45,216 nucleotides of DNA, from positions 1 through 45,216 of IMG/VR virus record IMGVR_UViG_3300033146_001628; one strand, 5' to 3'. This DNA comes from a virus. A program made the translations under genes and the position numbers. Shown here in pieces: positions 227 through 31,099 of this stretch; position 1 is the stretch's first letter, and the number at the start of each line of letters is the position of its first letter. Below the pieces are notes generated by a model, which saw nothing but the letters and a program-made list of their open reading frames with translations, was not told the DNA's origin and made no database searches.

Positions 227-2190
227 TGACAGCAATAAGAATAAATACTTTTGCAGGAGAACTGCCTAGAGTAGAACCGAGACTTTTATCCAACACGCAG
301 GCACAAAAAACGCTTAATTGTCACTTTAGACGTGGCGTTGTTAACCCGATAAAAGAAAGTTCACTTGTTGCCTCCCTCCCCGATAGCCTGAGATTAAGCA
401 TATATAACTATAAATGGAATAGTGTCGATAACTGGTTGAGCTTTTTACTAGATACCGATGTCGCAGAAAACTTTTTATCTGATGATCAATACAACAGAAT
501 ATATGCAATGGATGGTGTCAAGCCAACTGTTAAATATACATTAAGTGGTGTTGAGCAACCTTGGGCATGGTGGGGAGTTCCTAAACCTACATTAGTGCCT
601 ACTTTAGCTGTGCAGGACAAAACGTCAACCACATGGACACGGAATTGGGTCTATTGGTACGAGGAGCCAGACGGAACAAGAGTTGATGAGGGTACATTAA
701 CAGAAGGCGGAGTCGGTGGTGTTGTAGTGACTACACCGGGAAGCGTATATACTTTAGCCTCTGGAGATGTACCAACAAAGGTTGATGCATCGGCAGCGGC
801 ATTCTTTGTAATGGCCTTTGACTCAATATCTCAAACAGGAACTATTCTAGGGCGTGTAATACCAAGTCTAAGCAAAGCGAGTGTAACCTCTGATTTATTT
901 ATTGATGGATCAAAGGTAAGTGCTACACAGACATCAAGTGGCGATAGAGTTATGACGTTAAGTTATGACACAACGGAAACCAGTAATTATGAAGCCGACC
1001 GCAGTTATGTCTACACGTATGTTAATATTTTAGGAGAAGAAGGACCACCGTGCGACCCATCTAATTTTATAGGTGTTGAACCAGATCAAGATGTCTTAGT
1101 ATCTAACATGGATGTGACGCAGCCCACAGGCAGTTATATTCCAATTCAATACAAGAGAATTTACAGAACGGTTACAGGGAATGCAGGGACAGCATATCAA
1201 TTTGTGGCAGAAATTGATCTTCTTGATGCCACATATACAGACAGCTTGACTGATTTAGATACAGAAGATGTTTTGCCAAGTGCTATTTTTGATGTTCCCG
1301 CTGATGAACTCCATGGTTTGCGAGCAATGCCCAATGAATTCTATGTGGCGTTTAAAGGAAAGACGGTATATTTTTCAGTTCAGCAATATGTTTACGCATG
1401 GCCTGAACAATATGGATATAGTGTTGACGATGACATCATAGGTATTGATGTCAGCGGAAATACGGTAGTAGTTGGAACCGTTGATAAAACCTATCTTATA
1501 ACGGCCATTGATCCCGTGAATGTAAGCATCCATAAAATCCCATCAAGGCAATCTTGCGTAAGTAAACGCTCTATGATTACGGCTGGCGGTTCTGTTATGT
1601 ATGCCTCACCAGACGGAGGGTGTGCAGTAGTAGGGGCTACTATTTCAGTTGTAACAGAAGCCTATTTTGCAAAAGAGGACTGGGAAGCCATGAACCCAGC
1701 ATCAATGGTTTTCACTTATTTCGAAGATCATATATATGTCATGCACGATACAGCTTATGAATATCCTGATGGAACAGAAACCTATATGTTTAGCTTTCAA
1801 GCTGGAAACTTAGAAAAAGGTATTATCAGGTATCCGGATATCTTGAACGGCGCAATATATACGCCAGAAGATGATAGTATGTACGTCATAGATGGTAATG
1901 AAATAAGACGTTGGGAAGGATCAACCACTAATAGGAAATTCACTTGGAAATCAAAGGAATTCAATGTAAACCGACCAAGGCATTTTGTCTGTATAAGAGA
2001 TACATCTGATTTTTATCCAGATACATTTAATATTTACGCTAATAATATTTTGGTTCAGACAATAACAATGAATGACAATGTTGCGCGCAAAATACCAAAG
2101 CTCAGGCGTGAAAAGTTTTGGGCAATAGAAGTTGTATCGGATTCAGAGGTTCAGGAATTATTAATGACTACATCAATGGGTGAGGTATGA
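226..2190 (+). CDS. Tail nozzle / tubular-type virion protein
   Basis: This 654-residue protein starts with an Ile-Arg-Ile-Asn-Thr-Phe-Ala-Gly-Glu motif followed by Pro-Arg and Arg-Leu-Leu, a start I associate with podovirus nozzle or stabilisation proteins. The rest is beta-rich with many Thr, Tyr and Gly residues and no membrane segment. It overlaps the preceding stop by one base and has no clear ribosome site, so translation is probably coupled. It lies between the tail fibre block and the internal virion proteins, where such proteins are usually found. The family is assigned from pattern and position only. Confidence 0.55.
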   Translation: MTAIRINTFAGELPRVEPRLLSNTQAQKTLNCHFRRGVVNPIKESSLVASLPDSLRLSIYNYKWNSVDNWLSFLLDTDVAENFLSDDQYNRIYAMDGVKPTVKYTLSGVEQPWAWWGVPKPTLVPTLAVQDKTSTTWTRNWVYWYEEPDGTRVDEGTLTEGGVGGVVVTTPGSVYTLASGDVPTKVDASAAAFFVMAFDSISQTGTILGRVIPSLSKASVTSDLFIDGSKVSATQTSSGDRVMTLSYDTTETSNYEADRSYVYTYVNILGEEGPPCDPSNFIGVEPDQDVLVSNMDVTQPTGSYIPIQYKRIYRTVTGNAGTAYQFVAEIDLLDATYTDSLTDLDTEDVLPSAIFDVPADELHGLRAMPNEFYVAFKGKTVYFSVQQYVYAWPEQYGYSVDDDIIGIDVSGNTVVVGTVDKTYLITAIDPVNVSIHKIPSRQSCVSKRSMITAGGSVMYASPDGGCAVVGATISVVTEAYFAKEDWEAMNPASMVFTYFEDHIYVMHDTAYEYPDGTETYMFSFQAGNLEKGIIRYPDILNGAIYTPEDDSMYVIDGNEIRRWEGSTTNRKFTWKSKEFNVNRPRHFVCIRDTSDFYPDTFNIYANNILVQTITMNDNVARKIPKLRREKFWAIEVVSDSEVQELLMTTSMGEV

Positions 2191-2840
2191 CAACATTAAA
2201 ATTACCACATGCTATACCAACAGTTGAGAATATTAAAGACTTAGAGTCTCAGCGGATTATAACGGCGATACGTTCCGATGTAGAGGTGGCTTATGGAGTT
2301 ACCGGTAGCCAGTTAGATAGATTTATGCAAGTCAAAGAAATGATTGAGCTAGGCATTTTAGCCGTAGATGACAAGAATAGATTATACTTTACCCCCGGAG
2401 GATTAACGCAGACAACGGTTGCCACAAGTTCTACTGACAGCACAATTGCACAAGAGGGATGGTTAACGGGAAAGCTGGATCTAACAGGAGCCGCAGCAGG
2501 GAGTTCGATTTCATTGCCATTTACATTACCGCCTTTTGCAAGAATAAATAAAACATTCTATGAGGTTTTGACTGGTTTTACGGCTGGCTCTGGTGCCCCT
2601 ACTGTAGGAATTTCCGTACAGTATGACGGCGTTCCTAGTTTTACCGATTTAGTAACTGCATCTATTTTAGGAACCGGCTGGACAGCAGGGGTGCATGATG
2701 GTATACAAGACTATGCAGCAGTAAATATTTCTGATATAACAGATAATAATTATTATGCACCGCAAGCCGATATCGCTGGAACAGGGGATATTAGTGCTGG
2801 AGTTTTTAGAATATTTGTGCATTATTTCGTTATAACATAA
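2187..2840 (+). CDS. Virion protein of unknown function
   Basis: This 217-residue protein overlaps the preceding gene by four bases (ATGA). An N-terminal charged half is followed by a Gly/Thr/Ser-rich beta-type half with a Phe-Thr-Leu-Pro-Pro-Phe-Ala segment, as in small tail or decoration proteins. No cysteine motif, signal peptide or membrane helix is seen. It is probably a tail-associated structural protein because it is coupled to the nozzle-like gene. I do not recognise a family. Confidence 0.6.
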   Translation: MTTLKLPHAIPTVENIKDLESQRIITAIRSDVEVAYGVTGSQLDRFMQVKEMIELGILAVDDKNRLYFTPGGLTQTTVATSSTDSTIAQEGWLTGKLDLTGAAAGSSISLPFTLPPFARINKTFYEVLTGFTAGSGAPTVGISVQYDGVPSFTDLVTASILGTGWTAGVHDGIQDYAAVNISDITDNNYYAPQADIAGTGDISAGVFRIFVHYFVIT

Positions 2841-2847
2841 TAAATAA

Positions 2848-2877
2848 AGCCAGAAGGTAATTTTTCTCCTCAGAGCT
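2848..2877 (+). promoter_or_regulatory. Leader hairpin, copy 1
   Basis: A 29-nt segment beginning AGCCAGAAGG matches 38020-38048 at 27 of 29 positions; both differences are in the loop. AGC can pair with GCT and AGG with CCT, enclosing a symmetric CAGA/CAGA internal loop able to form tandem G-A pairs. It sits 23 bases before the start of the next virion gene and contains no ORF. Confidence 0.6.
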
Positions 2878-2899
2878 GTTAGGATAATAAAGGATTATT

Positions 2900-3979
2900 A
2901 TGACAGCTTTTACATTTCTCAGAAGGGCATTTAAATATAGTCCATTTCTTCCAAAAGCATTTTATAGATTAATTGAGAATAATAGATTTTTGATTACTGG
3001 ATTAAGAATAGAAGGAGCTGAAATACCTATTGATAGATTAACGGCAGAACAGGTTGAAAAATACACAGAAGGAGCAACACCTGATACAGTTACAGTGCCA
3101 TGGAACGAATTGACAGATAGCCAAATGGCATATCAAAAGGCAACAAATCCTACATCTTATACAGACTATATAGCTGGCCCATATTATGACCGTATAAGGG
3201 CAGCTCAAGAAAGCCAAAATCAAATAGCACAGGAACAAATAGGCTTAGCTGAAAGGCAAGCTGGAATAGCAGACGAAAGGCTAGCCTATTATAGACAGTA
3301 TTTTGAACCCCTGCAAGATGATATGATCGACAGGGCAATGGTCGGAATTGACCAAGGTTATGCCGCGGATTTAGCCCAGAATAAAACAGAGCAGGGTTTT
3401 AAAGATGCCAAAGCAGCCGCTCGTAGAGATATGCAACGCATAGGCATAAACCCAGATGATGAACGTTTTAAATCAATCAGGGATGATGCAAAGCTAAACG
3501 AGATGACGGCTATAGTAAATGCCAGAAATCAGGCAAAGTTAGGCGCCATTGATGAAACCCAGAATTTGAGAATGAATGTAGCTGGCATGGGAAGAGGTGT
3601 TCCTGTACAGGCTCAACAATCTTTAGCTGGTGCAGCTAGTACAATGGGTGGAGCTAACCAACGTTTGGCAACGGGTTCGCAGGGTTTATTGTCTGCCCAG
3701 AATATGGCAATTAATAGTGGGTTACAGGGTTTAAGTGGGCAACTGCAATCACAACAATTCCAAAGTGATTTGGCTTCTCAGAATAGATTAGATCAATTAT
3801 ATGGTCAGCAGGCTTTAGCGGCAACCGTTGGAGACCTTGGCGCTACTTATATGGGTTATAAAATGAACCAACAACCCAGCATATATGGATCACAGAACCC
3901 GACATCATTTAGTCCGGGCAATAATGCCTTTAACCCAAGTTTTAATATTCAATCAGGAACAGGATTAGCAGGATATTAA
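2900..3979 (+). CDS. Internal virion (ejection) protein, paralogue 1
   Basis: This 359-residue protein has an AAAGGA ribosome site. An N-terminal region is followed by a long helical Gln/Ala-rich part with a Gly-Leu-Ala-Glu-Arg-Gln motif, then Ile-Asp-Arg-Ala and Gly-Ile-Asp, and ends in a Gly/Asn/Ser-rich tail. The same ordered motifs occur in the protein at 4360, so the two are probably diverged copies. Helical, Gln/Ala-rich proteins between the tail and a giant internal protein are typical of podovirus ejection proteins. The assignment rests on composition and synteny. Confidence 0.6.
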   Translation: MTAFTFLRRAFKYSPFLPKAFYRLIENNRFLITGLRIEGAEIPIDRLTAEQVEKYTEGATPDTVTVPWNELTDSQMAYQKATNPTSYTDYIAGPYYDRIRAAQESQNQIAQEQIGLAERQAGIADERLAYYRQYFEPLQDDMIDRAMVGIDQGYAADLAQNKTEQGFKDAKAAARRDMQRIGINPDDERFKSIRDDAKLNEMTAIVNARNQAKLGAIDETQNLRMNVAGMGRGVPVQAQQSLAGAASTMGGANQRLATGSQGLLSAQNMAINSGLQGLSGQLQSQQFQSDLASQNRLDQLYGQQALAATVGDLGATYMGYKMNQQPSIYGSQNPTSFSPGNNAFNPSFNIQSGTGLAGY

Positions 3980-6415: not shown

Positions 6416-9400
6416 ATGGCTGAAAAAAAAGACATATGGGCAGAAGCGGAATATGTTGAGACGAAACAGGCAGCACCCAAGGCGCCAACCCAAAAATCTA
6501 TATGGGATGAGGCTGAGGTAGTTGATACTGGTGCGCCACAAATAGAAGAGCGTAGTTTCTTGGGAGATATCAGTGAGGCTTACAAGCGTGGGGATAAGCA
6601 AGCCGCGAATGACTTCTTAGGTTTTCAGGCCATGCTTGGACTTGTGCCCGAAAAACAAGCATTTCAGGCTCGCGATGATTTAAGAACTTTAGAGCAAAAA
6701 GATCCCGTAACATCAGGTAATATGTTTAGTAAAGTCGTTCAAGGTACTGCTAGAATGATCCCTCATATGGCCAAAGGTTCTGCTGTTGGCATGACAACGG
6801 GTTTAGGTGCTGCTGGCATTGCTGGCATTGCTGGTCAGTTAGGTCCTCAGGCAGCATTACCTGAAGAAGTGATAACAATGCCTGCCGCATATGCAGGAGG
6901 TTATGCCTCTGGTTCTATTAAGTATTGGATGGCACAGGGGGCTGGCGGTCTTTACATGGATTTAAGAGAACAAGGCATAACCCCTGAAACAGCCAAGTGG
7001 GCTGCTACAGTTGGCAGTATTCCTTATGCTTTTATTGAAAGAAGCCAGTTAGATAAAATAATTCCCGGACTTGGACGCAAAGGTAAAGAATTCGCAAAAA
7101 AAACCTTTATGAAGGGATTACGTAAATTGGCTTTGAGATATGGCAAGAATTGGGCTGAAAACGTTACCCAAGAAGGATTACAGGGCGCGGTCTTACAAAC
7201 CACAGAAGAGGTTACAAAATATATTGAAGACAAAATAGACAAAGATAAGGATTTATCTGATTCGGCAAAATCAATTGCCAAGAGGGCATACGCAGAAGCG
7301 AAAGAATCTATTGGTCCTCTGGGTCTCTTATCTGCACCGGGAGCCATAGCAGGAGGCGTTTCAATGGCATCGGAGGTAAAGAGGCAACAAAGTGCTGATA
7401 ACTTCATGAAAGAGGTGCTGAACCCATCTGAGACTGAGAAACAAGCCGTTCAGGCGGAAGCCGTAGGACAACAGCAGCAACCAGCGGAAATGCAACAACA
7501 AGAATTGGAATCTTTGACGGATAAGCAGTTAATTGATCTGGCTAATATGACCATAGATGAGGCAGTGAATGTCCCGGACGTACAGCAAAAAGGCATGATT
7601 ATAAATAGAGTCAATAATATTAGGGGAATATTAAAGGCTAGAGCAGCAGATCAAAAGGCCGTTGGTATAAATATGTCGGAGGCTCAAAACTTTGATAACA
7701 AAGAAAAGCTTGATGATATCGCAAATACCGGAACCACGGACGCATTAGGTGCACCGCTAGCAATAAACAGGTTGCAACAAGAGGAAATACTTACAGAACA
7801 GTTACAGGATCAAGCCTCAGGTGTTGTACGGGAAACCGTACAGGAGCAAGGAGCTGACATTGAAAAGACTCCATTAAGCGAAGTATCGGAAGACCAAAAA
7901 CAAACAGAATCATTAATTCAAGAGGCTAATAAATTTAATAATGAAGAAGATTTTATAGTTTCAAAAATTGAAGATGGATATTTTAAAGAGATGTCAAGAG
8001 CAGAGCAGTTTAAAGAAGAAAATAAATTAGCTAATATATATAAACAGTCAAGGATTCAGAAGATCTATAGAGGTGATAATTTAAAAGGGCAGCCATCAAT
8101 AAAAGAAGCCAATCAAGAGCAAATATCAGAAGATGTTCCACGTGGAACAATTGAGCCAACTGTTTCCAGAACTGAAACGGTTCAGGATATAGAACAGGCG
8201 GCTAATAAAAATGCTAAAGGTTTGGGCTTGGGGATAACCACTCAAAAAGGCAAGGGCGACACTATCTCTTATGTAAGCGTGAAAGACCCAGCAACCACAG
8301 ATAATATAGATGTTGCTTTGAATCCCACTGAAAAGAAAACAGTCTCAAAGAAACAGATGATTCAGGAGGTTGACCGCAAACGGCAACAACGCATTGAGAC
8401 AGGGGAATATGATTATTATAAAACCAAAGATGGCAACATTGTCTTTGAACCCACGTCTCAGGAATTAGCAGACAAGTTTGGACAAAAGGTAACTGAGGGC
8501 AGAGAGATTATTCCCGCACTTGAGAGACCTACCTTTGCGACATTGGTACAGAAAAAGATAGAGCTAAAAACACCATTTTTTAAAAAGGTCGCAGATAAAT
8601 TAGGGCTTGAGTTCGTAGATACTAAAAGAGGCAAGGTCGAGTTCAAAGATAATCAGACAGGGGAAACTCTTAAAGTTGATATTGACGCAGACCAGAAAGC
8701 AATTCAATCCGAACTTGATAACGTTAGAAAGACCTCTGATAGAAAGGTGTTATTATCGTCTATCACAAGGGCTCAAAAAGTTTTAAATAACAAAAGACTT
8801 AAACCACGTATTAAATATAGGAATGATGTCAAAAAAGTCCTCAAAGCATACCCAGAGGTTGCTCAGGTATTAAAGAAAGACTTTGATATAGAATTGATGA
8901 ATAAGGAAGAAATTAAACCTTTGGTCGAGTCTATAAATAAAGCCTTTGATTTTATCAAAGAATCTCAGAGAGACTTGCCTGTCTTAAACGCAGAGGTCGA
9001 AAAAACGGCAATAAGCAAAGATTTAAAAAAGGCAGAACAAAAGACATTGCGTAGGGAAGAAAGAATAAAAGCATTAAAAGGTAGGCAAAAGGACGTAGTC
9101 AAAGAACAGAAGGAATTATCTCAATATGTGAGAAAGAATTTGCCTCTAGATATGAGATTCAAAGCCGATGCAAAGATAAGAAAATTGGCTACAGCAATGC
9201 GTGGAGCAACTGCTGACAAGTACATGGATCACGGCAAGAGAATAGTTGACAAGATGTCTGAACAAAGAAAATCAAAGGATTCAGTCAAGTCTATTGAAAA
9301 GCTTTTAAAGAAAACAAAGCCGTTTAAAAAAGATGGTGTACTAAAAGGCAAGTTAGATGCCAATGCGAATAAAAACCTCAATGAAGTACGTAGAGTTATT

Positions 9401-11827
9401 AAATTAGATCAAGCCGAGGTAGACAAAGAATTAGAGGCTATATTCAAATCATTAGAAGATGGCAAAGATACTAGAGACCCTACACCAGAAGAAATAGATC
9501 AATTATATGTTTTGCAGATGTTTGGCAATCTGAAAGAAAAATCATCGAAACAAATCAAGCAAGCCGAAAATGAATTAAAGGATTTCATAAATAAGTCTAG
9601 GTTTAAGAACAAGATATTAGATGAGGCTCAAAGGGTTGAGCGAGCCAAGTTAAGAGATGAATTTGTAAACATAATAACTGGTGGCAAGGGTGAAAAGACA
9701 CTTACCCAAAAACAACAGGAAGAAATAGACAAAAGTACTGTTCAGTCTATGAGAGAATCTATTCGCGGCTTTGATGACATGAATCAAAACTTTGAATGGA
9801 TGATGGATAAACTATCTAGGTATGACAAGGATTCTAAACCGTTAGAAAGCAAGCTCAATACATGGGCTGCGGACAAGGTTTTTGATGCAACACGTGCTGC
9901 GGAATCAGGAAATATAGAACAGGCCGATTTGATTAACTCAAAGTTGCAGGAAATATATGGCAAAAAGGGAAGAGCCCTTGAAAAAGAATTAGCAGATAAT
10001 ACACGTATATTAAAGAAAGGTGATAAGACAGGAATCTTTATAAACGAAAAAGGAAAGAAAACAGAATTGTTAGTCAATCAAAATCAAGCCTACAAGCTGT
10101 GGCAATTATATCAAGATCCCACGACTTGGGAAACGTTTAACAATATGGGATTCAGTCATAAGACATTTGAACAGATAGATGCCTATATGAAGCCAGAGGT
10201 CAAGAAATGGGCTGAATGGCAGATGGAGGAATTTTATCCTAAATACTATGAAGGAATCAATGATGTATATAAGAAGTTATTCAATGTCGATTTACCATTT
10301 AATGAATTTTATTCACCTATATCAAGAGATTATGAGGGACAAGTAGAAGACGATCCTTTCTTGCAAGCTCAATCTCATTACGGCTCTGTAATGAATAGAC
10401 ATTTACAAGGCAGGGTAGATAGCAAGATTCCTTTTAAACTAGTTGATGGAGATACAACATTATTAAGTCATATAAGTGAGATGGAGCATTTCAAAGCATG
10501 GGCATTGCCTATGAAAGATTTGCGTAGCGTATTGGGTGGAAAGAATGTAATGAAGGCCATCAGGGAATACCATGGAACAACAGCAACAAAGGTCATTAAT
10601 GGATTCCTTAATGACTTTGCACGTGGCGGTATAGATAGAGCAACGGCATTAAATTTTCTCGACAAATGGCGGTCTACTTATACCGGAGCAGTGACTCGCG
10701 GCAATCCCACAATTACAATAAAACAATTAACATCTATACCAGCATATGCAGCAGATATGCCTATTAAAGAATTTAATAAAGGTTTAGCTGATTTCATGAA
10801 AAATCCTAAAAAGGCAATTAAGACCTTGATGGATACTGATTTCATGAAGGCAAGATACGACAAAGGTTTTGAGCGTGATTTAATTCTAGCCTTTAGAGGA
10901 AGTCAGGAAAAGGGACTAGCAAAGTCTAAAGGGTTAAATGATTTCTTGAGTGGATTTATCAAAGCAGGAGATGGTGCTGCAATTGTATTTGGTGGCTGGG
11001 CTGCTTATAAGTACGCATATGATAAAGCTATATCAGAGGGAAAGAGCGAAGCCGATGCCAAGCAATTAGCAGAAAAGTTTTTTATAAAGACTACAGAACG
11101 TTCTCAGCAGGCTGGAAATATAAAAGACTTATCATTTTTCCAACGTGCAGGATCTTTGGCTAAATTATTCACGATGTTTGCCACGTCCCCATTGTCTTAT
11201 TATCGTTCCGTATATGGAGGATTAAGAAATTTAAAACAAGGACGTGGATCTAAAAAGGCAAATGCAAAACGTATTGCAATAGGTCAATTTGTTTTACCTA
11301 TGATTTTCCAGCTTGCAGCTAATGGCATGAGATGGGAAACCGAAGATGAGCTAAGGGCAGCATTACTTGGTCCCTTGAATAAACTCTTTATTGTTGGTGA
11401 TTTTCTAGAAGGTTTTGTTAATGCTGTAACTGGTGCAGATTGGTACAAGCGGATGTTTGATGAAAAAGAATCCGTGCCATTATTAAGCACATTCGCTGAT
11501 ATTAATAAAATTGCATTTAAGATGTTCAATGACAATGAAATAACTACAGAGGAATTTCTGGATATTGCAGGAGATATATTACAGACAGCAAGTAAACTCC
11601 CCGGAACACCTGTAAGCGGTATACCTATTACATCATTGCGTAGAATAGCTGGAGGAGCTTTTGATGCCGCAGCAGGTAACACAAGTTATCCTCTGAGACG
11701 TGTTTTAGGATTTAGTAAATATGCCTTGAAAGAGGGATCATTGCCAAAAACTAAAAAGAAGGCCAACGAGATTAAAAATAACAGATTCAAAGCACGTTCA
11801 AAAGGTAGATTTAAAAGTAGATTTTAA
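6416..11827 (+). CDS. Giant internal virion / DNA ejection protein (large polyvalent type)
   Basis: At 1803 residues this is the largest gene. The N-terminus has two copies of an Ile-Trp-Asp/Ala-Glu-Ala-Glu-x-Val motif (about residues 7-15 and 29-37). A Gly/Ala-rich hydrophobic stretch follows at about 121-150, with further amphipathic helices. The centre is Lys/Glu-rich and helical, and the C-terminal third is more globular. I see no lytic transglycosylase or polymerase motif. Size, helical content and position after the smaller internal proteins fit a podovirus ejection protein. There is no clear ribosome site, and the gene follows the previous stop by four bases. Confidence 0.65.
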   Translation: MAEKKDIWAEAEYVETKQAAPKAPTQKSIWDEAEVVDTGAPQIEERSFLGDISEAYKRGDKQAANDFLGFQAMLGLVPEKQAFQARDDLRTLEQKDPVTSGNMFSKVVQGTARMIPHMAKGSAVGMTTGLGAAGIAGIAGQLGPQAALPEEVITMPAAYAGGYASGSIKYWMAQGAGGLYMDLREQGITPETAKWAATVGSIPYAFIERSQLDKIIPGLGRKGKEFAKKTFMKGLRKLALRYGKNWAENVTQEGLQGAVLQTTEEVTKYIEDKIDKDKDLSDSAKSIAKRAYAEAKESIGPLGLLSAPGAIAGGVSMASEVKRQQSADNFMKEVLNPSETEKQAVQAEAVGQQQQPAEMQQQELESLTDKQLIDLANMTIDEAVNVPDVQQKGMIINRVNNIRGILKARAADQKAVGINMSEAQNFDNKEKLDDIANTGTTDALGAPLAINRLQQEEILTEQLQDQASGVVRETVQEQGADIEKTPLSEVSEDQKQTESLIQEANKFNNEEDFIVSKIEDGYFKEMSRAEQFKEENKLANIYKQSRIQKIYRGDNLKGQPSIKEANQEQISEDVPRGTIEPTVSRTETVQDIEQAANKNAKGLGLGITTQKGKGDTISYVSVKDPATTDNIDVALNPTEKKTVSKKQMIQEVDRKRQQRIETGEYDYYKTKDGNIVFEPTSQELADKFGQKVTEGREIIPALERPTFATLVQKKIELKTPFFKKVADKLGLEFVDTKRGKVEFKDNQTGETLKVDIDADQKAIQSELDNVRKTSDRKVLLSSITRAQKVLNNKRLKPRIKYRNDVKKVLKAYPEVAQVLKKDFDIELMNKEEIKPLVESINKAFDFIKESQRDLPVLNAEVEKTAISKDLKKAEQKTLRREERIKALKGRQKDVVKEQKELSQYVRKNLPLDMRFKADAKIRKLATAMRGATADKYMDHGKRIVDKMSEQRKSKDSVKSIEKLLKKTKPFKKDGVLKGKLDANANKNLNEVRRVIKLDQAEVDKELEAIFKSLEDGKDTRDPTPEEIDQLYVLQMFGNLKEKSSKQIKQAENELKDFINKSRFKNKILDEAQRVERAKLRDEFVNIITGGKGEKTLTQKQQEEIDKSTVQSMRESIRGFDDMNQNFEWMMDKLSRYDKDSKPLESKLNTWAADKVFDATRAAESGNIEQADLINSKLQEIYGKKGRALEKELADNTRILKKGDKTGIFINEKGKKTELLVNQNQAYKLWQLYQDPTTWETFNNMGFSHKTFEQIDAYMKPEVKKWAEWQMEEFYPKYYEGINDVYKKLFNVDLPFNEFYSPISRDYEGQVEDDPFLQAQSHYGSVMNRHLQGRVDSKIPFKLVDGDTTLLSHISEMEHFKAWALPMKDLRSVLGGKNVMKAIREYHGTTATKVINGFLNDFARGGIDRATALNFLDKWRSTYTGAVTRGNPTITIKQLTSIPAYAADMPIKEFNKGLADFMKNPKKAIKTLMDTDFMKARYDKGFERDLILAFRGSQEKGLAKSKGLNDFLSGFIKAGDGAAIVFGGWAAYKYAYDKAISEGKSEADAKQLAEKFFIKTTERSQQAGNIKDLSFFQRAGSLAKLFTMFATSPLSYYRSVYGGLRNLKQGRGSKKANAKRIAIGQFVLPMIFQLAANGMRWETEDELRAALLGPLNKLFIVGDFLEGFVNAVTGADWYKRMFDEKESVPLLSTFADINKIAFKMFNDNEITTEEFLDIAGDILQTASKLPGTPVSGIPITSLRRIAGGAFDAAAGNTSYPLRRVLGFSKYALKEGSLPKTKKKANEIKNNRFKARSKGRFKSRF

Positions 11828-27962: not shown

Positions 27963-28103
27963 ATGAGAACAGACTTTAACTTTAAAATAAAATGCAGTTA
28001 TTGTGGGCAACTACTGGAAGCAGATATTGATAAGTCTAAACTTACAGCATCATCGGCATACAATGAAGAGTTTATAATACTGATTTTTATAGGTTTTCAG
28101 TGA
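27963..28103 (+). CDS. Small Cys-motif protein
   Basis: This is a 46-residue ORF with Lys-Cys-Ser-Tyr-Cys-Gly-Gln-Leu-Leu-Glu-Ala, a half zinc-knuckle found in small phage proteins, then a hydrophobic end. The stop overlaps the next GTG start. It may be shortened at its C-terminus. Confidence 0.45.
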   Translation: MRTDFNFKIKCSYCGQLLEADIDKSKLTASSAYNEEFIILIFIGFQ

Positions 28104-28393
28104 TAAAAAACAAGAGACCCTATAAAACATTACAGAACTTTCACGCATCAGGATTTAATTTTAATGTTGACGGTATAAAAATGGATATCGAAGGTGCTGA
28201 ATTCGAGTTGATTGAACAGGGTTTGTTGCCACCATCAAAAAAGTTAGTTATGGAATATCATTTCAGTAAAGATAGATCTTTTAGAAATTTTGTTATGAGA
28301 ATGAATATTTTAAAGAAGAGATACAATAATGTTTATTATATACCGTCTTTGCATACGATATCAAAGTATTCTGTTATCAATAACAATGATTGA
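28100..28393 (+). pseudogene. FkbM-like methyltransferase fragment
   Basis: This is a 97-residue ORF from a GTG. Asp-Gly-Ile-Lys-Met-Asp-Ile-Glu-Gly-Ala-Glu-Phe-Glu is the FkbM-family core, but the SAM-binding Gly-rich N-terminal half is absent. The C-terminal part (Leu-Val-Met-Glu-Tyr-His-Phe-Ser-Lys-Asp) fits the family's end. It is probably a truncated remnant. Confidence 0.6.
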
Positions 28394-28488: not shown

Positions 28489-28926
28489 ATGCCGAGAACC
28501 GAAACGAAAACCAACATCCAAAAAAAAGCAATGTTAAAAGCATTGGTTAAAACACTTGGTATTGTTGCCCCTGCCGCAAAGTTGACCCACTTAGAGCTAA
28601 AGAAAACCTTAAAGTCAAAAGCCCCTGCTGCAGAAACAATAAGATTGGCACATTACACTTGGTTGAAGTCTGATGAAGACTATAAAGAAAACGTAGAAAG
28701 CATGGATAACATAGCACTAGACTTTGCTGAAAGCCATTTACACAAACAAATAGAAGGCGATATCCCATCGTCAACAATATTTTATTTAAAGACTAAAGGC
28801 AAAAGCAGGGGTTATATAGAACGCACAGAGGTTACAGGAGAGGACGGCGGCAACCTAAATCTAACCATAGTCACAAAGACTAAGAAGGCCAAGGAGGCCG
28901 TACAAAAGTTTATGGAGAAACCATGA
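28489..28926 (+). CDS. terS: Terminase small subunit
   Basis: This is a 145-residue protein. The N-terminal helices fit a helix-turn-helix domain. Residues about 86-112 hold Pro-Ser-Ser-Thr-Ile-Phe-Tyr-Leu-Lys-Thr-Lys-Gly-Lys-Ser-Arg-Gly-Tyr, followed by Glu-Val-Thr-Gly-Glu-Asp-Gly-Gly, the usual central signature of phage small terminase subunits, which recognise the packaging site. It sits two genes before the large subunit, as expected. AAGG lies about 13 bases upstream of the ATG. Confidence 0.7.
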   Translation: MPRTETKTNIQKKAMLKALVKTLGIVAPAAKLTHLELKKTLKSKAPAAETIRLAHYTWLKSDEDYKENVESMDNIALDFAESHLHKQIEGDIPSSTIFYLKTKGKSRGYIERTEVTGEDGGNLNLTIVTKTKKAKEAVQKFMEKP

Positions 28927-29267: not shown

Positions 29268-29621
29268 ATGCGATGGTTAGATATGGACATAGGAAGACTA
29301 TTTGAAGAAACCACAGAGAGCGATGACAGGTACATCATCCATCAGGGGGGGACTAGGTGTTTCCATCCTGACACAAAGGTAATAACTTCTAAAGGGTTGG
29401 TTAAAATTAAAGATATAAAAGAGGGGGACTTGTGTTTGTCTAACGCTAAAGGGTGCAAGTGTTATAAAAAAGTCTTGAATACTTTTAAGCTAAAGAACTC
29501 AAAACCAACAGTAAAGATAAAGTTTAAAAACGGTAAGGAAATCATAGCTACAGATGATCATAAGTTTTTCTATGAAGGTGGTTGGCAGGAAATAAAATCA
29601 ATATTATCTAATATAAATTAA
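29268..29621 (+). CDS. terL-n: Terminase large subunit N-extein fused to intein N-half (Int-N)
   Basis: This is a 117-residue ORF. Residues 1-30 are the start of TerL and end in Gly-Gly-Thr-Arg, the first part of a Walker A loop. Cys31 opens an intein: Cys-Phe-His-Pro-Asp-Thr-Lys-Val with Gly-Leu-Val-Lys-Ile-Lys-Asp-Ile (block A), and Ala-Thr-Asp-Asp-His-Lys-Phe (block B, Thr-x-x-His). The ORF then stops, giving an Int-N of 87 residues, close to known natural split inteins. The partner half is at 29843. The protein should be active only after trans-splicing. Confidence 0.85.
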   Translation: MRWLDMDIGRLFEETTESDDRYIIHQGGTRCFHPDTKVITSKGLVKIKDIKEGDLCLSNAKGCKCYKKVLNTFKLKNSKPTVKIKFKNGKEIIATDDHKFFYEGGWQEIKSILSNIN

Positions 29622-29641
29622 AACATACACAGGCTCTAAAT

Positions 29642-29842
29642 ATGAAGGTATATTGCAAAAACTGTAGATATTATAGGTTTGGAATTATTAATACAGAATT
29701 TTGTAAAGCAAAGACTTTTAACAGCCGTGACCATTTAACTGAGTATACGAGTTATAGCAATCCAGCTTTCTTTAATGAAAATAATGATTGTTCTATGTTT
29801 GAAAGAAAATTTTCTATTTTCCAAAAAATTAAGAAATATTAA
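29642..29842 (+). CDS. Cys-rich small protein lodged inside the split intein
   Basis: This 66-residue ORF fills the gap between the two intein halves. It has Cys-Lys-Asn-Cys near the start, a Cys about residue 21 and a Cys about residue 50 in Asn-Asp-Cys-Ser-Met-Phe-Glu, a pattern common in small phage proteins of unknown role. It has no homing-endonuclease motif. It shares frame with the downstream ORF and ends one base before its ATG. Confidence 0.6.
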   Translation: MKVYCKNCRYYRFGIINTEFCKAKTFNSRDHLTEYTSYSNPAFFNENNDCSMFERKFSIFQKIKKY

Positions 29843-31099
29843 ATGGAAACACGTCTAAACCTAAACGATATTGCGTCATGGGGATATGTTAATGACGTTG
29901 AATATATCCATGACATAGAGATAGAAGATAGCCACAATTATTATTTAGAGGATCAGATATTAGTTCACAATTCGGGGAAGACTTACACAATCCTTTTTAT
30001 CCTTGCATTAACAGCTCTCAAACGTCAGAAGAACATCAACCCCACGATTATATCCGTTGTCAGTGAATCCATGCCACACCTAAAGCGAGGCGCCATGCGT
30101 GATTTCTTAGCAATCCTCAAAGGCGAAGGGCTGTACAACGAAAAGAACCACAACAAATCAGACCACATTTACACCATAGGTAGTGTAATCATCGAATTCT
30201 TTTCCGCGGATAATGAAAGCAAGATGAGGGGTTCCGGGCGCGACATACTGTTCATGAACGAATGTAATAACGTCAAGTACGCAGCAGCTAAACAGGCAAT
30301 GCAGAGGACAAAAGAAAAGATATATCTTGATTATAATCCAGTTGCAGAGTTCTGGGTGCATAACAAAGTTATGCCGTTTTTCAAACACACTTATATTCAC
30401 AGCACTTACAAAGACAATATAGACCACTTGCCAGAATCGCAGGTCGAGGAGATAGAGCAAGGCAAGAATATAGACAAGAACTGGTGGCGTATATACGGCG
30501 AGGGTCTAGTTGGCGTGCCTCAAAATGTTGTATTTCCTGACTGGAATATCGTTGATGAATTCCCAGCTAATGCAAAAAAGGTTGCCTATGGCTTAGACTT
30601 GGGTTACACAAATGATCCATCTGCTTTAATCAAAGGCGGTTTTTATAATGGTGAGGTCTATTATCATGAGGTCTTTTATGAAAAAGGTCTGGCTCCTATA
30701 ATCAATCCAAGAAAGAAAAGAAAAAGTGTAGAGGAATATTTAATTCTTAATGGAGTCGAGAAATTCAAACCTATTTACTGTGATCCGTCTGCGCCTCTAT
30801 ATATCAAAGAACTGCGAAACGTTGGGTATAATACGCAAAAGTCAGATTCTCACAAGATCAGAGACGGTATTGAAATAGTCAAAAAGCATAAATTTAATGT
30901 TACGAAAGATTCTTTGAATCTAATAAAAGAGCTCAGAAATTATACTTGGTTAGAAAAGAAAGATGGAGAAGACAACTTAGAACAAGAACCTATTGATGAC
31001 TGGAATCACGGGATTGATTCCCTACGCATGTATACATACATGACTTTTGGCGTGAAACACGCCATACCTTATGAGCTTGCGGCATCAGGTGCGATGTAG
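29843..31099 (+). CDS. terL-c: Intein C-half (Int-C) fused to terminase large subunit C-extein
   Basis: This is a 418-residue ORF. Residues 1-43 are Int-C: block F Tyr-Ile-His-Asp-Ile-Glu-Ile-Glu-Asp-Ser-His-Asn and block G Ile-Leu-Val-His-Asn. Ser44-Gly-Lys-Thr then completes the Walker A loop as Gly-Gly-Thr-Arg-Ser-Gly-Lys-Thr when joined to the N-part. Walker B is Ile-Leu-Phe-Met-Asn-Glu (135-140). The RNase-H-type nuclease shows Asp252 (Leu-Asp-Leu-Gly-Tyr), Asp314 (Tyr-Cys-Asp-Pro) and Asp-Asp-Trp-Asn-His-Gly-Ile-Asp (385-392). Spliced TerL would be about 405 residues, normal for the PBSX-like group. The start has no clear ribosome site and follows the previous stop directly. Confidence 0.85.
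   Translation: METRLNLNDIASWGYVNDVEYIHDIEIEDSHNYYLEDQILVHNSGKTYTILFILALTALKRQKNINPTIISVVSESMPHLKRGAMRDFLAILKGEGLYNEKNHNKSDHIYTIGSVIIEFFSADNESKMRGSGRDILFMNECNNVKYAAAKQAMQRTKEKIYLDYNPVAEFWVHNKVMPFFKHTYIHSTYKDNIDHLPESQVEEIEQGKNIDKNWWRIYGEGLVGVPQNVVFPDWNIVDEFPANAKKVAYGLDLGYTNDPSALIKGGFYNGEVYYHEVFYEKGLAPIINPRKKRKSVEEYLILNGVEKFKPIYCDPSAPLYIKELRNVGYNTQKSDSHKIRDGIEIVKKHKFNVTKDSLNLIKELRNYTWLEKKDGEDNLEQEPIDDWNHGIDSLRMYTYMTFGVKHAIPYELAASGAM

Follow-up and report, generated by a model that had tools for sequence, protein, structure and literature searches.

The viral record IMGVR_UViG_3300033146_001628 from IMG/VR (the window, i.e. the whole analyzed stretch of 45,216 nucleotides) includes a gene for the large terminase subunit, TerL, that is divided within its Walker A motif between two open reading frames (ORFs), each of which carries one part of an intein. 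Very probably this TerL is produced as two polypeptides that are joined by a split intein, which would be derived from a mobile cassette with the structure IntN-HNH-IntC (intein N-half, HNH endonuclease, intein C-half) that has lost the endonuclease and has a gene coding for a 66-amino acid protein in the slot. An earlier note on this DNA had described the two ORFs and the joint between them, and that part of its account stands, but it had omitted the gene located in the gap, the HNH-bearing relatives, and the conflict between the trees of the inteins and their terminases.

The divided terminase gene

ORF1 (29268-29621, plus strand, as are ORF2 and ORF3) codes for a 117-amino acid protein with the structure MRWLD...HQGGTR followed by CFHPDT...LSNIN and a stop codon. 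Its first 30 residues (29268-29357) are the TerL N-extein, which aligns with the N-exteins of the split relatives described below and ends in HQGGTR, the first half of the Walker A motif. The remaining 87 amino acids plus the stop codon (29358-29621) constitute the intein N-half, identified by its matches to intein_Nterm and to the gp41-1 split intein and by alignment, and include Cys1 (29358-29360) and the block B motif TDDH (29550-29561). ORF3 (29843-31099), which is in a different frame and separated from ORF1 by 221 bases, codes for 418 amino acids with the structure METRL...ILVHN followed by SGKTYTIL... The 43-amino acid intein C-half (29843-29971; match to intein_Cterm and alignment) includes block F (VEYIHDIEIEDSHNYYL) and block G, which ends in VHN, while the C-extein (29972-31099) starts at Ser+1 of SGKT and continues through the ATPase and nuclease regions to the stop codon, as defined by matches to TerL families. 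The exteins of 30 and 375 amino acids add up to a predicted spliced TerL of 405 amino acids.

The matches of ORF1 and ORF3 to family models indicate that the relationship to inteins and to TerL is not due to chance. ORF1 matched the NCBIfam model intein_Nterm with an E value of 4.7e-12 and 46.7 bits (cutoff 24.5). ORF3 matched Pfam Terminase_3 above its cutoff (E = 1.6e-10) and the PBSX-type TerL model TIGR01547 with an E value of 4.7e-26 and 92.1 bits, which is under the cutoff of 105 of that model; the match to PHROGs phrog_2 (E = 1.4e-29) agrees with the identification as TerL. The set of class 1 splicing residues, Cys1, TDDH, HN and Ser+1, is complete in the window intein and common to its relatives in the alignments of both halves, and the nearest solved structure to the N-half is that of the gp41-1 split intein, with an E value of 3e-8. 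With the N splicing region on one ORF and the C splicing region on another, the element is, judging from its sequence, a naturally split class 1 intein for which trans-splicing is predicted.

The Walker A motif is complete only once the exteins are joined (GGTR + SGKT). Two uninterrupted TerL relatives (L002 and L003) read NQGGTRSGKT across the joint, and the alignments with the TerL proteins of Flavobacterium and Bacteroides phages start at about the first residue past the intein; therefore the break is located inside this motif. These results bear out the coordinates, frames and residues in the earlier note, its figures of 87, 43 and 405 residues, its claim that the joined exteins restore GGTRSGKT, and its view of the element as a natural, gp41-like intein split at the usual endonuclease position. 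The comparison to intein profiles and to uninterrupted TerL proteins that it had proposed as a check gave scores over the cutoffs for intein_Nterm and intein_Cterm, and the same motif in the uninterrupted relatives.

According to the proposed mechanism, the ORF1 chain, ending in the intein N-half, and the ORF3 chain, starting with the matching C-half, would associate after translation to form a single folded Hint domain. Cys1 would attack the Arg-Cys bond, the chain would be transferred to Ser+1, and the terminal Asn would cyclize, releasing a TerL of 405 residues without a scar, in which GGTRSGKT is intact. DNA packaging would then depend on trans-splicing, as the earlier note had suggested.

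Split relatives and mobility of the cassette

Relatives were sought by DNA-pattern scans and alignment search of IMG/VR. The terL gene is split at the same codon in at least 15 distinct loci (L028, L055, L056, L057, L060, L063, L065, L066, L067, L074, L075, L076, L077, L079 and L080, where L067 is counted once together with its five near-identical copies). The middle ORF in all of them codes for a NUMOD4/HNH_3-type protein of about 172 residues (222 in L060); Pfam HNH_3 was matched on L028, L055, L056, L057, L060 and L063, and the remaining middle ORFs were assigned by evident similarity. The N-half and middle ORFs overlap by 0-44 bases, with a short gap in L056, and the middle and C-half ORFs overlap by about 8-20 bases where the start could be placed. 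An alignment search of genome contigs with the N-half found the HNH-bearing arrangement, with an apparently shortened N-half ORF, in a contig of a bacterial Lacinutrix metagenome-assembled genome (L118); the equivalent search of genome contigs with the C-half alignment found nothing. Two other loci obtained in a plain N-half search (L005 and L016) were discarded, as their inteins are in ribonucleotide reductase and not in TerL.

The window is the sole member found that does not have a middle HNH gene. No match to HNH_3 (PF13392) was detected anywhere in the 45-kb record, and neither tblastn nor a hidden Markov model of the HNH proteins of 12 relatives found any trace of an HNH gene, inside or outside the gap. 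A maximum-likelihood tree of the intein halves placed the window intein in a clade of eight (support 96/94), the other members of which are all split and HNH-bearing. Comparison with one of the split relatives, L063, showed 56% identity between the inteins and only 36% between the terminases. When groups taken from the intein tree, and not from the extein tree under test, were submitted to the approximately unbiased (AU) test, the extein data rejected both the intein clade (p-AU 3.2e-5) and the pair formed by the window and L063 (p-AU 8.2e-5). Because the intein and extein trees conflict, the cassette has, on this sequence evidence, moved between terminases, as a homing element would. Since the window nests among HNH-bearing cassettes but its record gave no HNH match, the homing gene seems to have been lost or replaced; most simply, the cassette of the window would come from a split one that bore an HNH gene, with loss of the endonuclease on the way. 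This ancestor, mobile and composed of IntN, HNH endonuclease and IntC, would have invaded phage terminases at their Walker A codons; the endonuclease gene would have been lost, presumably together with the ability to home, and a 66-amino acid gene from another phage family would have taken the slot.

Contiguous TerL inteins at the codon of the window split were found in L058, L062 and L078. An HNH/NUMOD4 gene lies within a contiguous TerL intein, likewise at this codon but in another reading frame, in L029 (reverse complement, 1628-3697), L033 (6510-7640) and L078 (4980-7118). The terL-intein frame over the HNH gene has no stop codons in these three loci versus 12-13 expected in synonymous shuffles, an outcome matched by none of 5000 shuffles for each. 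Stops are not depleted in the same frame of the split L063 and L028, and L075 has a mild deficit (9 vs 15).

The middle gene and alternative explanations

The slot where the relatives keep the HNH endonuclease is occupied in the window by ORF2 (29642-29842), whose predicted product is a 66-amino acid Cys-containing protein starting with MKVYCKNCRYYRF. Four other viral contigs have homologues with 27-39% identity that stand alone as genes, and therefore ORF2 can be considered a real gene and not a spacer. The family, defined by the start MKVYCKNC and further conserved Cys residues, is found in varied neighborhoods (L023, position 5001; L024, 5001; L025, 1557; L122, 3001). Searches of ORF2 against Pfam, NCBIfam and PHROGs identified no known domain, there was no HNH match, and tblastn against named phages gave no match; the AlphaFold model, built from 4 sequences only, had a predicted local distance difference test (pLDDT) value of 42, too low to be of use.

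The TAA stop codon of ORF2 is immediately followed by the ATG of ORF3 (29840-29845), and likewise the start of ORF1 lies directly after a TAG. While a survey found good Shine-Dalgarno sequences in most genes of the window, none was found for ORF1, ORF2 or ORF3. The intein C-half is thus likely made by stop-restart coupling, and the 66-amino acid gene probably preserves the translational relay to ORF3. A more far-reaching proposal is that the split intein outlived the homing gene and was kept with ORF2 as a linked three-gene relay, in which the quantity of the TerL C-half would be determined by the translation of ORF2 and motor assembly would be gated by trans-splicing and by ORF2, beyond the tolerance of a parasite; we consider this doubtful.

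The contiguous inteins at the same codon in L058, L062 and L078 could suggest that terL is also contiguous in the window and that its split appearance is the product of sequencing or assembly errors. Elsewhere in the window a Mutator-type transposase (PF00872; 17081-18291, minus strand) is found as two adjoining ORFs that match consecutive stretches of the model and are apparently a single gene, with a frameshift that either breaks it or is used by it, and this could point in the same direction. However, the terL halves are out of frame, the 221 bases between them hold a gene that has homologues elsewhere among phages, and the same split occurs in at least 15 distinct loci; on these grounds error or frameshift was rejected as extremely improbable. 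Rejoining of the gene in its RNA, through a group I or group II intron, is hardly credible either. Group I introns do split terL in some phages, such as the Jug phages, where the gene is rejoined in the RNA (PMC12363816), but the window has no Rfam match at the gathering threshold and none that is relevant between 28800 and 31200 at E values up to 1, and if the DNA from one extein to the other were excised, the intein coding sequence with its conserved splicing residues would be lost.

Decay of the intein, with halves that no longer splice and a TerL that is inactive or functions as two associated pieces, is unlikely. It would be consistent with the absence of the homing gene and with the long branch of the window intein (1.04), and PMC10448857 mentions a precedent of phage genes working in pieces without splicing, a nucleotide reductase whose gene is divided by that of an endonuclease. 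On the other hand, the splicing residues are all intact and both frames are open, non-covalent complementation is improbable with a break in Walker A after only 30 residues, and no second terL turned up when the record was searched with the C-half. Our preferred explanation, two chains joined by a split intein whose cassette lost its endonuclease, must also face several points that weigh against it. The long branch means that decay of the activity is possible, ORF3 is marginally over the cutoff of the NCBIfam model intein_Cterm (15.9 vs 15.6 bits), and, as ORF2 and ORF3 start in weak contexts, expression of the C-half is only presumed. As for the loss of the endonuclease, a single tree is the basis for this step, and since the record possibly does not cover the whole genome, an HNH gene could be elsewhere in it.

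Upstream of ORF1 there is a probable gene for the small terminase subunit (28489-28926, plus strand), identified by its position and by a weak match to phrog_4044 (E = 0.024). Beside the terminase genes, a 97-amino acid ORF (28100-28393) has a match to the FkbM methyltransferase domain (PF05050) that is confined to the C-terminal part of the domain, and is probably a gene fragment. Nucleotides 6416 to 11827 include an ORF of 1803 residues with no match in PHROGs or Pfam.

Significance and comparison with known systems

Judging from the window, an essential phage gene may keep a split intein even when the homing endonuclease has disappeared and cargo unrelated to it occupies the slot. Together with its relatives it provides a series at one terL codon for testing intein splitting: contiguous mini-intein, contiguous intein with overprinted endonuclease, split intein with free endonuclease, and split intein without it. 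About 15 candidate split inteins with a typical split and Ser+1 are added for protein engineering, and the annotated terL of such phages may lack the N-terminal part of Walker A.

Split inteins whose halves flank a free-standing endonuclease gene were reportedly described by Dassa et al. in 2009 as 'fractured genes'. The terL genes share with them the split at the usual endonuclease position, the neighboring half genes and the ORF in between, which in the relatives is an HNH gene as in the PolB gene of phage MIJ3 (PMC6892783). They differ in the host gene, TerL interrupted at Walker A, and a homing endonuclease ORF lies between the halves in 15 relatives but not in the window, where a non-endonuclease gene takes the middle position. 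Among solved structures the split position of the window equals that of gp41-1, although the host protein is another one, a helicase, and the sequence similarity is partial. The gp41-1 structures are PDB 6qaz and 6riz. Contiguous TerL inteins such as that in gp49 of phage TaPaz (PMC8228797) and those in L058 and L062, the latter two at the identical codon, are single polypeptides that splice in cis, unlike the window. In the case of ShiLan, an insertion in a phage methylase hides an out-of-frame HNH gene (PMC11855218) that overlaps an open host frame as in L029, L033 and L078, a likeness to these relatives and not to the window; ShiLan has no splicing domains, whereas in the three relatives the HNH gene is within a true intein.

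Naturally split inteins in phage-type TerL proteins are already known as AceL-TerL, GOS-TerL and Cat-TerL, with N-parts of 25-37 amino acids, C-parts of 104-115 amino acids and Cys+1 (PMC11766414), so the kind is not new. The window intein has instead parts of 87 and 43 amino acids and Ser+1, and the different +1 residue suggests that the others are at another insertion site; the descriptions set them apart. We found no paper on a typically split TerL intein in Walker A or on a replaced homing gene, in a literature search that covered few subscription papers. While split TerL inteins and an endonuclease between the halves were known, the combination of a typical split site, an insertion in the P-loop and a probably replaced homing gene is new here.
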